DNA of 59,374 nucleotides from Pseudomonadota bacterium (GTDB lineage: Bacteria; Pseudomonadota; Gammaproteobacteria; Acidiferrobacterales; Acidiferrobacteraceae). The notes under the pieces are model-generated. The model worked only from the letters and a program-made list of their open reading frames with translations. It did not search any database and was not told the origin of the DNA. Location: contig JAKBUS010000007.1 in assembly GCA_021841585.1 (NCBI GenBank), positions 1-59,374 on the forward strand, given 5' to 3'. Position 1 is the first letter of the stretch. Each line of letters opens with the position of its first letter. Positions 4,424 to 43,489 of the stretch are shown piece after piece. Made by a program: the position numbers and the translations under genes.

Positions 4424-4662
4424 CAGCCGCCGCTCACGGGCGGAAAGAACGCCACCTCGTCACCGTCATGAACGAGGCTTGTCAGCGATGCGTGCTCGCA
4501 ATTAATGGCCACGAGGAGGGGCTTGGGGAGGTCGGCTACGCGCGCGCCAGCGAGTGCCGCCAGTATGTCCGAGGCGCGCTGAGGTGTAGTCGCTGCTACC
4601 AGGCTGCGCGTGTCGCACCCCAGGATCTCGCGCACGACGGCAAAACAGCGAACCGTGATCAC
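4423..4662 (-). CDS. moaD: Molybdopterin synthase sulfur-carrier subunit MoaD
   Basis: A 79-aa ubiquitin-fold sulfur carrier. The diagnostic end is PPVSGG: the terminal Gly-Gly is adenylated and thiocarboxylated before sulfur transfer in the MoaD-MoaE complex. The VHDGDEVAFFPP stretch before it is typical of the family. It lies one base downstream of moaA and shares one base with moaE. Confidence 0.93.
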   Translation of the reverse strand: MITVRCFAVVREILGCDTRSLVAATTPQRASDILAALAGARVADLPKPLLVAINCEHASLTSLVHDGDEVAFFPPVSGG

Positions 4663-39880: not shown

Positions 39881-40633
39881 GTGAAACGGATACTGATCAG
39901 TAACGATGATGGATACATGGCCGCCGGCCTCGGATGCCTCGCTGCGCGTCTCGCGCATAACGCCGAGGTCACCGTGGTGGCGCCGGACCGCGACCGCAGC
40001 GGGGCGAGCAATTCCCTGACCCTGCTGCGGCCGTTGCGCGTCTCGCGCGCCGCCAACGGGTTTTTCTTCGTCGACGGCACACCCACCGACTGCGTGCACA
40101 TCGCGATCACGGGGCTCCTCGAGCAGGAGCCCGATATCGTCATCGCCGGCATCAATCACGGCGGCAATCTCGGCGATGATGTCTTGTATTCTGGAACCGT
40201 GGCGGCGGCCATGGAGGGACGATTTCTCGGTCTGCCGGCCATTGCCGTGTCGCTGGCGGCGCCCAATCCCACGCACTTCGCGACCGCGGCGGCGGTCACC
40301 GAACGCCTACTTTTGGCGTTGACCGCCGAGACCTTGCCCGCCGACACGGTGCTGAACGTAAACGTGCCCGATGTCGCCTATGCCGACTTGCGTGGTTTTG
40401 AGGCGACCCGTCTCGGGCATCGCCACAAGGCCGAACCTGTGGTCGCCTCGCAGGATCCTCGGGGGCGGGCGATCTATTGGGTGGGGCCGCCGGGCGCGGC
40501 CGATGACGCCGGTCCCGGCACCGATTTCCACGCCATCGCCGCGGGCTATGTCTCGATCACGCCCCTGCACGCCGATCTGACTCGCCACAATACTCTGGAT
40601 TCCCTCAAGGCCTGGTGCCAGGAGACATTGTGA
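39881..40633 (+). CDS. surE: 5'/3'-nucleotidase SurE
   Basis: 250 aa. The metal site is [14 protein letters not shown] at the N-terminus, and [11 protein letters not shown] and [21 protein letters not shown] follow. SurE hydrolyses nucleoside monophosphates and is linked to stationary-phase survival. The order surE-pcm-nlpD-rpoS is the classical gammaproteobacterial set. GTG 39881 starts the frame, three bases after the sppA stop. Confidence 0.94.
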
Positions 40634-41292
40634 ACGGTGAATCGCGCGCTGGCGCCGGCATGACCTCGGCGCGTACCCGCGAGCGTCTCATAGGGCGGTT
40701 GCGCGAGCAGGGGATACGCGACGAAGAGACGCTCGGGGCGCTGTCGGCGGTCCCCAGGCATCTGTTCGTCGACGAGGCCTTGGCGAGCCGCGCCTACGAG
40801 GATACGGCGCTGCCGATAGGACATGGGCAGACCATTTCCCAGCCCTATATCGTGGCGCGCATGACAGCGGCCTTGCGCGCCTCGGGGCCACTTGATCGCG
40901 TCTTGGAGGTCGGGACCGGTTCCGGATACCAGGCGGCGGTGCTGGCGCGGCTGGTCGGCCACCTTTATACAGTGGAGCGCATAGGGGGTCTGGTGCGCGC
41001 CGCGCGCCAGCGCTTCCAGACGCTTCGGCTTGCCAATGTCACCGTCCGCCACGCCGATGGTTGCGAGGGCTGGCCGGAGGAGGCGCCGTTCGATGCCATC
41101 ATCGTGACCGCCGCGGCGCGCGCGGTCCCGACCGCGCTCTTTAGTCAGCTCAAGGAAGGCGGGCGCCTCGTGGTACCAGTGGGCGGGGACGGGCAGGAAC
41201 TCTTGCTTTATCGCCGGCGTGGCACGGCGATGTCCTTTGAACGCCTCGAGGCCGTCAATTTCGTGCCGCTGCTCCCGGGCGGAATCGTGTAA
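40630..41292 (+). CDS. pcm: Protein-L-isoaspartate O-methyltransferase Pcm
   Basis: 220 aa from GTG 40630, which overlaps the surE stop (GTGA); ATG 40660 would give 210 aa, near E. coli Pcm (208). It repairs damaged aspartates. The conserved [19 protein letters not shown] and SAM motif [15 protein letters not shown] are present, with DAIIVTAAA later. The 3' end is two bases from nlpD. Confidence 0.92.
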
Positions 41293-41294
41293 GG

Positions 41295-42059
41295 ATGCGC
41301 CGCGCGCTGCTCGCAGGGTGCCTGCTCGCGCTACTTGCGGGGTGCGTGGCCCGCTTCCCCGCGCCTATCCAGAATGATGGCACGTCGCTTGCCGGTAATC
41401 GCGGCTATTACCGGGTCCTGCCAGGCGACACTCTATATAGTATCGCGTTCGAGACCAGGCACGACTACCGCACCTTGGCGCGCTGGAACCATATCCCGGC
41501 GCCTTACCGCATCGAGGTGGGCGAGCGTATCCGGTTAACCGCGCCACGGCATGTCAGGGTGGCGCCGGCACCCACCGGAAGGCCCATCGCATCCCATCCG
41601 ATATCTCCTCCGGTGGCGCTTGCGCGGCCTGTTCAAGGCTTGCGCGCAGCGCCGGCGCCGCGGGTGTCCGTGGTGCATTGGATATGGCCGGCGCGTGGGA
41701 CCATTAAGGAGACCTTCGGGCGCGGTCCACTGAGCGGCCGGCCAGGCAATCGCGGTATCGATATCCTCGGGCGGCCCGGGGAGCCGGTGCGCGCCGCTGC
41801 CGCTGGGCGGGTCGTCTATCGCGGTAGTAGACTTCCTGGTTACGGTAAGCTTATTATCATTAAAGAAAATAATGAGTACCTAAGTGCGTATGCGCATAAC
41901 GCGCGCATTAAGGTAGAGGAGGGGGCGATAGTGCGGCAAGGCGAGGTGATCGCCATCATGGGTGACAGCGGTACCGATCGGGTGGAGCTTGAGTTCGAGA
42001 TCCGCCGACGCGGAATTCCGGTGAACCCTCTGCGCTATCTGCCCGTAAGACACCACTAG
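41295..42059 (+). CDS. nlpD: NlpD-like lipoprotein (LysM + LytM domains)
   Basis: 254 aa. A lipoprotein signal ends in the lipobox LLAGC (Cys 17). A LysM domain follows ([17 protein letters not shown]). The C-terminal M23/LytM domain reads NRGIDILG and [20 protein letters not shown], but lacks the catalytic HxxxD and HxH pattern (RVELEFEIR), so it is a non-catalytic activator of amidases as E. coli NlpD. Codons in 41843-41895 turn strikingly AT-rich. It precedes rpoS, where an internal rpoS promoter is expected. Confidence 0.92.
41828..41857 (+). promoter_or_regulatory. Candidate rpoS promoter inside nlpD
   Basis: TAGACT (41828-41833) matches -35 at 4 of 6 positions, and TATTAT (41852-41857) matches the -10 at 5 of 6, with an 18-base spacer. 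The boxes lie at the start of an AT-rich codon run in otherwise GC-rich nlpD. In E. coli the main rpoS promoter also lies inside nlpD. The long leader to rpoS at 42086 would be about 220 bases. Confidence 0.45.
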
Positions 42060-42085
42060 CGAGAAAAAAAGAGGTACAGCCGCTC

Positions 42086-43069
42086 ATGGTCGAATCGGAA
42101 CTGGATGAGAATGCGGTAGAAGCATCGGAGTCGGAGGTCCTTGAGGGGACGGACACGGAGGAGGCCTTGGAGGGGGCCAGCGATGCGGGGGCGACGGCTG
42201 AGGCCACCTCTGAGCGCGAAACTGACGACACGGCCGGTCCGCAGGCTGATGCCACCCAGCTCTATTTGCGCGAGATCGGGTTTTCGCCGCTGCTTGCAGC
42301 TGAGGAGGAGGTCTATTACGCGCGCAAGGCCTTGCAGGGCGACTCATCGGCGCGCCATCACATGATCGAATGCAATCTGCGGCTCGTGGTGAAGATCGCG
42401 CGCCGATACATGAATCGCGGGCTGGCCCTGCTCGACCTGATCGAGGAAGGCAATCTCGGGCTCATACGCGCGGTCGAGAAATTCGATCCCGAGCGCGGCT
42501 TCCGGTTTTCCACCTATGCCACATGGTGGATCCGGCAAACGATCGAGCGCGGGATCATGAACCAGACGCGCACGATACGCCTTCCGGTCCATATCCTGAA
42601 GGAGATCAATATCTACATGCGGGCCGCCCGTCATCTGGCCCAGAAGCTTGACCACGAACCCACTCCCGAGGAGGTGGCGCTCCTGCTCGACAAGCCGATC
42701 GCCGATGTGCGCGCCATGATGGGTTTGAATGAGCGTATCGCCTCGGTCGACGCGCCCCTCGACATCGATCCCGACCGCTCGCTGCTTGATGCCATCGCCG
42801 ATGACAAGACCGCGAACCCGGAGAAGATCCTGCAAGACGAGGACCTCCATGGCCAGATCGCGGCGTGGCTGTTGGAGCTGAACGAAAAGCAGCGCGAGGT
42901 GGTGGAGCGCCGTTTTGGCCTGAACGGCCGCGATGTCTCGACCCTGGAGCAGGTGGGCGCGGATATCGGCGTGACGCGCGAACGCGTGCGGCAGATCCAG
43001 GTGGAGGCCTTGCGTCGCCTGCGCGGCATGCTCGAGCGCGGCGGTTATTCGATGGACGCGCTTTTTTAG
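42086..43069 (+). CDS. rpoS: RNA polymerase sigma factor RpoS
   Basis: 327 aa (E. coli 330). An acidic N-terminus of 45 residues precedes region 1.2 ([14 protein letters not shown]). Region 2 shows [27 protein letters not shown] in parts and [20 protein letters not shown]; region 4 has [18 protein letters not shown]. It is the stationary-phase/stress sigma factor. The AAAGAGG ribosome site lies upstream of ATG 42086. Confidence 0.95.
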
Positions 43070-43105: not shown

Positions 43106-43489
43106 TCAGGATGAGGGGTCGGCGAGCAATAGACCGGCCGCCACCCGGCGCCCCTCGCTCATGAGCAGGTTATAGGTCCGGCAGGCGGCGGCGGTGTCCA
43201 TGCATTCGACGCCGATCTGGGCATGCGCAAACGGGGCGAGCCACACAGGGGGCGGGAAGCGCAGCATGCCGCCGGTGCCGAGCAGGACGATCTCCGGGGT
43301 GCCCGCGGCGAGCTCCGCGAGACATATGGCGTCGAGCTCCCCGAAGTGCCGGGGACGCCAGTTCGGGATCACCTTATCCGGCATGAGAATGACGCTGTGC
43401 TCGTAGATGAGGTCATCGATACGCAGTCGGCCCGGGTCATAACCCCGAATGAGGTGTCGCCCGTCACCGGTGTCCAGATGAATCTTCAC
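43106..43489 (-). CDS. Mth938-like (DUF498) domain protein
   Basis: 127 aa. The fold is seen in GYDPGRLRIDDLIYEHSVIL, EIVLLGTGGMLRFP and VECMDTAAACRTYNLLMSEGR. Family members include human NDUFAF3 and Xcc1710-like proteins, of unclear bacterial function. It is convergent with rpoS and divergent from alaC. Confidence 0.85.
   Translation of the reverse strand: MKIHLDTGDGRHLIRGYDPGRLRIDDLIYEHSVILMPDKVIPNWRPRHFGELDAICLAELAAGTPEIVLLGTGGMLRFPPPVWLAPFAHAQIGVECMDTAAACRTYNLLMSEGRRVAAGLLLADPSS

Follow-up and report, generated by a model that had tools for sequence, protein, structure and literature searches.

Organization of the nlpD-rpoS locus

The window, by which we mean the whole 59,374-nucleotide stretch of Acidiferrobacteraceae DNA analysed here, carries surE, pcm, nlpD and rpoS in this order on the + strand (Table 1). 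The protein encoded between pcm and rpoS matches two NCBIfam models, ActS with 189 bits and NlpD with 179 bits, both below the cut-off, and the name NlpD is assigned from gene order. Only 26 bases separate the end of nlpD from the start of rpoS, so any independent rpoS promoter must sit inside nlpD. The element described below (41826-41858) falls within the nlpD reading frame, with rpoS downstream on the same strand.

Table 1. Coordinates of the genes and of the proposed promoter features at the nlpD-rpoS locus
Feature	Position	Strand	Description	Family evidence
pcm	40615-41292	+	upstream of nlpD in the cluster	Pfam PCMT
nlpD	41295-42059	+	LysM and M23 lipoprotein gene, contains the element	Pfam LysM, Peptidase_M23
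-35-like box AGTAGACT	41826-41833	+	hexamer TAGACT at 41828-41833; AGTGGACT or GGTGGACT in most relatives	
Spacer, 18 bases	41834-41851	+	synonymous sites variable in the left and middle part	
-10-like box GCTTATTATC	41849-41858	+	hexamer TATTAT at 41852-41857; TATYAT in relatives	
A/T-rich extension ATW AAR NAN AAT AAT NAN TAC	41859-41879	+	family-level; presumed initial transcribed region	
Putative transcription start	41864	+	placed solely by promoter geometry, about 7 bases past the -10 box	
rpoS	42086-43069	+	presumed target gene	NCBIfam RpoS equivalog, 494 bits (cut-off 394); Pfam sigma-70 regions 1.2, 2, 3, 4

The original prediction had described an island of A/T-ending codons at 41825-41910. 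The island is real: G/C-ending codons make up 35% of the 17-residue peptide quoted there, compared with 71% in nlpD outside it. However, its centre lies further left. The 17 codons at 41823-41873 have a G/C-ending share of 18%, the minimum among all 16,603 overlapping 17-codon windows of the 59 kb, of which 130 are as low as the 35% of the quoted peptide; these were drawn from 55 mechanically chosen open reading frames, some of them spurious. The right-hand third of the proposed island, beyond about 41880, lies outside the constrained element.

The two hexamers TAGACT and TATTAT, claimed to stand 18 bases apart at the left edge of the island, are indeed present. In a scan of 41200-42200 against the sigma-70 consensus hexamers, they form the sole promoter-like site (0.3 +/- 0.6 sites in shuffled sequences), with 9/12 consensus matches and a spacing within the 16-18 bases usual for such promoters. 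The same scan of the minus strand of 41200-42200 revealed no promoter-like site. With a -35 hexamer that matches only 4/6 of the consensus and a spacer of 18 bases, the site is middling as a sigma-70 promoter.

Synonymous constraint within the family

To describe the constraint on the island, we compared the locus among the family genomes. The search took in all 18 genomes of the family, and 17 contain the relevant part of nlpD; the contig of G015 stops inside nlpD, and this genome does not enter the family counts. In these 17 genomes, the 17-codon window from codon 178 shows 0.22 synonymous differences per comparable pair, compared with a mean of 0.50 (sd 0.07) when surE, pcm, nlpD and rpoS are divided into 986 windows. 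This is the lowest value in the four genes; outside the element, the minimum is 0.29, in rpoS. Past about 41880, synonymous divergence is back to normal. The low divergence that the original prediction had anticipated is thus found, and relatives do not adopt the GC-ending codons that were to speak against it.

At the first box, Ser178 is AGT, the next codon is GGA or AGA (Gly/Arg) and Leu180 is CTT, each in 17/17 genomes; the window and four of its close relatives have AGA, not GGA. Similarly, at the second box, Leu186 is CTT and Ile188 is ATC in 17/17, while Ile187 is ATT in 15 and ATC in 2. Elsewhere in family nlpD genes, AGT accounts for 13% of the codons for Ser, GGA for 12% of those for Gly and CTT for 16% of those for Leu. 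Between the boxes, the Pro/x, Gly, Tyr and Gly codons differ among relatives in their third base. To the right of the -10 box, Asn192 and Asn193 are AAT in 33/33 Asn codons, and Tyr is TAC in all 16 rows that bear it. The A/T-ending codons at 41859-41879, part of the island as first described, are kept within the family only and not outside it.

Folding also revealed an inverted repeat, GCTTATTAT-N11-ATAATGAGT, at 41849-41877 in most of the window's genus, which may be a family-level operator. A short upstream open reading frame (ATG-Ser-Thr-stop, 41872-41883) was considered and dropped, its ATG being absent in L013, L014 and L018.

Conservation across the order and the class

Outside the family, the conserved signal consists of two boxes, (A)GTRGACT at the positions of 41826-41833 and GCTTATYATC at those of 41849-41858, with 18 bases between TRGACT and TATYAT. 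Elsewhere in the order, 38 of 39 genomes have an nlpD match and 34/38 carry both boxes. At class level, 254 of 377 drawn genomes have an nlpD match, and the element is present in 50 of the best 125 of these 254, a sample biased toward nearer NlpD relatives. The looser call rule gives these 50, and the stricter one gives 49 and a single partial element (L156). The total scores of the class loci are bimodal, with 49/125 at 16-17, one at 15 and the other 75 no higher than 14. When all 377 class genomes were searched with the pattern, 83 matched with at most two mismatches, and at least one of these matches (G107, the same as L130) is not a true element.

The Leu codon of the -10 box is CTT in all element-bearing loci of the order (34/34) and class (50/50), CTT having formed part of the call rule in both counts, and the second Ile codon is ATC in 34/34 and 45/50, respectively. 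Where Ser is replaced by Gly (9/34 elements in the order, 3/50 in the class), a GGT codon preserves the T. Additionally, none of the 101 loci with the element has the consensus A as the third base of the Ile codon at -9, although ATA would leave the protein unchanged; this absence is due in part to avoidance of a rare codon. A sequence logo was built from loci chosen by the pattern and is not independent evidence.

The bases of the element occur together or hardly at all. Four synonymous states were followed, namely the T of AGT/GGT, GGA, CTN and CTT, in the 60 class loci where the protein sequence is compatible with the element ([SG]GL..YG.LII). All four are present in 49 of these loci, the other 11 have at most two, and GGA and CTT are never found singly. 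Among the matches listed, the element is common to Acidiferrobacterales, Chromatiales, Woeseiaceae, Thioalkalivibrio, Ectothiorhodospira, Sedimenticola, Competibacteraceae and others. A contig in a record titled Nitrospira sp. MohnsGC08_bin011 (L288) also bears the gammaproteobacterial nlpD element, which suggests binning contamination. Collectively, these results uphold the claim that selection acts on DNA rather than on protein, as relatives keep AGT, CTT, ATC and AAT and the core recurs well beyond the family. The original prediction understated both this constraint and the promoter: the signal is very sharp and extends over many deep lineages of the class.

Association with rpoS

In the class sample, rpoS lies downstream in 50/50 nlpD loci that bear the element, and the element occurs in 0/29 nlpD loci without rpoS within about 900 bases, after one locus that was too short had been dropped (Fisher p = 2.8e-8, for genomes that are not independent). 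The element is absent, however, in 45/95 class loci with rpoS beside nlpD, so rpoS does not need it. The distance from the element to rpoS ranges from 177 to 642 bases with a median of 292 in the class loci, and this looseness is more in keeping with a promoter than with an RNA element at a set distance from the start codon.

Moreover, an exact scan at the DNA level, free of protein guidance, over a collection of 84,980 species' genomes returned at least 119 loci. Among the matches listed, 119/119 lie inside nlpD, as judged by an NlpD match, and 111 have rpoS within 1500 bases; in 7 others the sequence ends within 404 bases of the element. The one real exception without rpoS is L223, where nlpD is followed directly (around position 4540) by a relative of the gene that lies past rpoS in the window (43106-43489, minus strand), with the element intact. 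The element is also intact in L004 (genome G013), where a transposase-carrying insertion splits rpoS just past its start. The break in G013 and the apparent deletion in L223 count against a strict rule, and both look like recent losses of rpoS.

Comparison with known rpoS promoters

Nested rpoS promoters are already known. In E. coli, the main rpoS promoter, rpoSp, is nested in nlpD, with a start 567 bases upstream of rpoS, as given in excerpts of PMC10948607. This arrangement resembles that of the window, with rpoS directly downstream of nlpD in both (excerpts of PMC10948607; K-12 record). In contrast, the position differs. On K-12 DNA, the start falls in nlpD codon 212, 277 bases upstream of the codon that an NlpD alignment pairs with GGT at 41823 of the window. 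The E. coli promoter is thus placed about 300 bases upstream of the window's -10 box, and its 567-base leader compares with about 222 bases predicted for the window. At the site equivalent to the element, K-12 has AAC GCG CTG and AAT CTG ATT ATC, and neither box is present.

The rpoS promoter of P. fluorescens SBW25 also lies inside nlpD, where it was mapped by 5' RACE and depends on PsrA (excerpts of PMC11838912). Its wild-type -10 hexamer is taken as CAGCCT, read back from the TAGCCT mutant in the same excerpts. The PsrA-activated promoters of P. fluorescens SBW25 and P. aeruginosa share with the window's element the nesting of an rpoS promoter within nlpD. Two loci without the element, L134 and L152, which we take to be Pseudomonas-like partly from the hexamer match, have CAGCCT 42 bases upstream of the GGT-equivalent codon, and upstream of it a palindrome, CAAAC-N4-GTTTG, that resembles the PsrA consensus. 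The -10 box of the window lies 29 bases downstream of the GGT codon and hence 71 bases downstream of the Pseudomonas -10 box. Within the nlpD gene of the window, no PsrA-like site was found, and PsrA-like control of the element was rejected on this ground.

Judged from these alignments, nested rpoS promoters appear to occupy at least three positions in nlpD, with the window's element included. The original prediction of an rpoS promoter at the left edge of the island is supported by the sequence evidence and probably right, but its wording "as expected" does not hold by homology, since the site differs from those of E. coli and Pseudomonas. We found no description of the window's element in the open-access literature (PMC, outside which most subscription journals lie), and on the best reading, what is new here is the position and the element inside nlpD.

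A probable nested core promoter and its alternatives

On the evidence above, we consider that the island is probably a sigma-70-type core promoter, read rightwards inside nlpD, that starts an rpoS mRNA, and we would put the probability of this reading at about 85%. RNA polymerase would bind TRGACT as the -35 hexamer and TATYAT as the -10 hexamer, 18 bases apart. Transcription would begin near 41864, and promoter geometry predicts a leader of about 222 bases up to the rpoS ATG. In this way, rpoS would obtain its own transcript, apart from read-through from surE-pcm-nlpD.

The reading frame of nlpD would account for the imperfect -35 hexamer, based on the sequence and the known consensus. The hexamer begins at the third base of a codon, takes in the whole of the next and ends two bases into the one after. 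In this frame, the consensus TTGACA would read xxT TGA CAx and place an in-frame stop in nlpD. With Leu as the following residue, the nearest allowed hexamers would be TGGACT (Gly GGA) or TAGACT (Arg AGA), and it is these that TRGACT denotes. The bases that can be chosen freely (the T of AGT/GGT, the A of GGA/AGA, the C of CTN and the T of CTT) match the sigma-70 consensus, and most of them go against codon usage. Conservation this strict is nevertheless unusual for an ordinary promoter, and this counts against the promoter reading.

The same strictness is what makes another kind of DNA site worth weighing, in which the boxes serve a dedicated DNA-binding regulator or a non-primary sigma factor acting on rpoS and the sigma-70 likeness is partly accidental. 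It would account for the strictness with which deep lineages keep (A)GTRGACT and CTTATYATC, for the imperfect -35 hexamer and for the consensus A that is never used at -9; a regulator might also use the family-level inverted repeat, which overlaps the -10 box and the start. Yet the boxes stand at promoter spacing, the rarely used synonymous bases fall on sigma-70 contacts, and no palindrome spans the conserved boxes. In L016 and L018 the inverted repeat is not intact, and no regulon is visible in the 18 family genomes, where no clear second copy was found: all matches outside nlpD have two mismatches, and they number 11 against 9 in a reversed control. We regard this explanation as unlikely, though it is the most serious of the rivals.

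Far less probable is that the conserved bases act in RNA, as a structure or a protein-binding motif such as a CsrA-type GGA in the nlpD-rpoS mRNA. The first box of most relatives does contain GGA, and in Acidithiobacillus caldus the rpoS leader is a target of CsrA (excerpts of PMC13029372), but the window and its four close relatives have AGA there instead. In addition, the folding z-scores of three stretches are unremarkable (-1.4, -1.6 and -0.8), no Rfam family matches at E up to 1, the synonymous sites between the boxes vary, and the distance to the rpoS start is loose. Least probable of all is that the island arose as a by-product, whether of constraint on the protein, of local codon usage, of biased mutation or of the acquisition of an AT-rich patch. 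The peptide is conserved across NlpD generally, and Ile, Lys and Asn codons are prone to A/T; however, element-free loci with the same peptide use AGC, GGC/GGG, CTG and similar codons, the four states appear jointly, and the synonymous conservation spans families of the class, where the element tracks rpoS. For the core element, the by-product explanation is already refuted.

Evolution of the putative promoter

To follow the element through the class, we built a tree from 139 rows (6 of the 17 family loci, 38/38 loci of the order and the 95 class loci with rpoS), with the element columns excluded, using a quick LG+G4 model and SH-aLRT only. The tree requires 16 changes of element state, at least 5 of them forced by starred branches, compared with 40 when the labels are shuffled. 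The element thus clusters on the tree with repeated changes, and the tree alone cannot separate gain from loss. Ancestry with repeated loss, although unproven by the tree, is the simpler reading because identical bases seem unlikely to have been gained independently so often at the same codons.

The element may accordingly represent an ancestral rpoS promoter at the same codons in many deep gammaproteobacterial lineages, lost or moved in some. We lean slightly toward a fuller version of this history, in which a single ancestral core promoter was kept at the same nlpD codons through most deep gammaproteobacterial lineages, NlpD (Ser/Gly-Gly-Leu and x-Leu-Ile-Ile) and the promoter reached a mutual compromise, and E. 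coli and Pseudomonas are derived, their promoter having moved within nlpD.

Implications

In Gammaproteobacteria, survival in stationary phase is under the master regulator RpoS, and most studies of rpoS transcription have been made in E. coli and Pseudomonas. If the promoter reading is true, the most widely kept rpoS promoter among the sampled lineages sits at a third position in nlpD, for which we found no assay in the open-access literature. The locus would then be a clean case of a promoter and a protein that constrain each other's sequence across a class. It would also provide a handle on why rpoS promoters stay nested in nlpD yet shift place, as the Discussion of PMC11838912 asks. Finally, the element would allow rpoS transcription to be annotated by a precise rule in many uncultured sulfur- and soda-lake bacteria.
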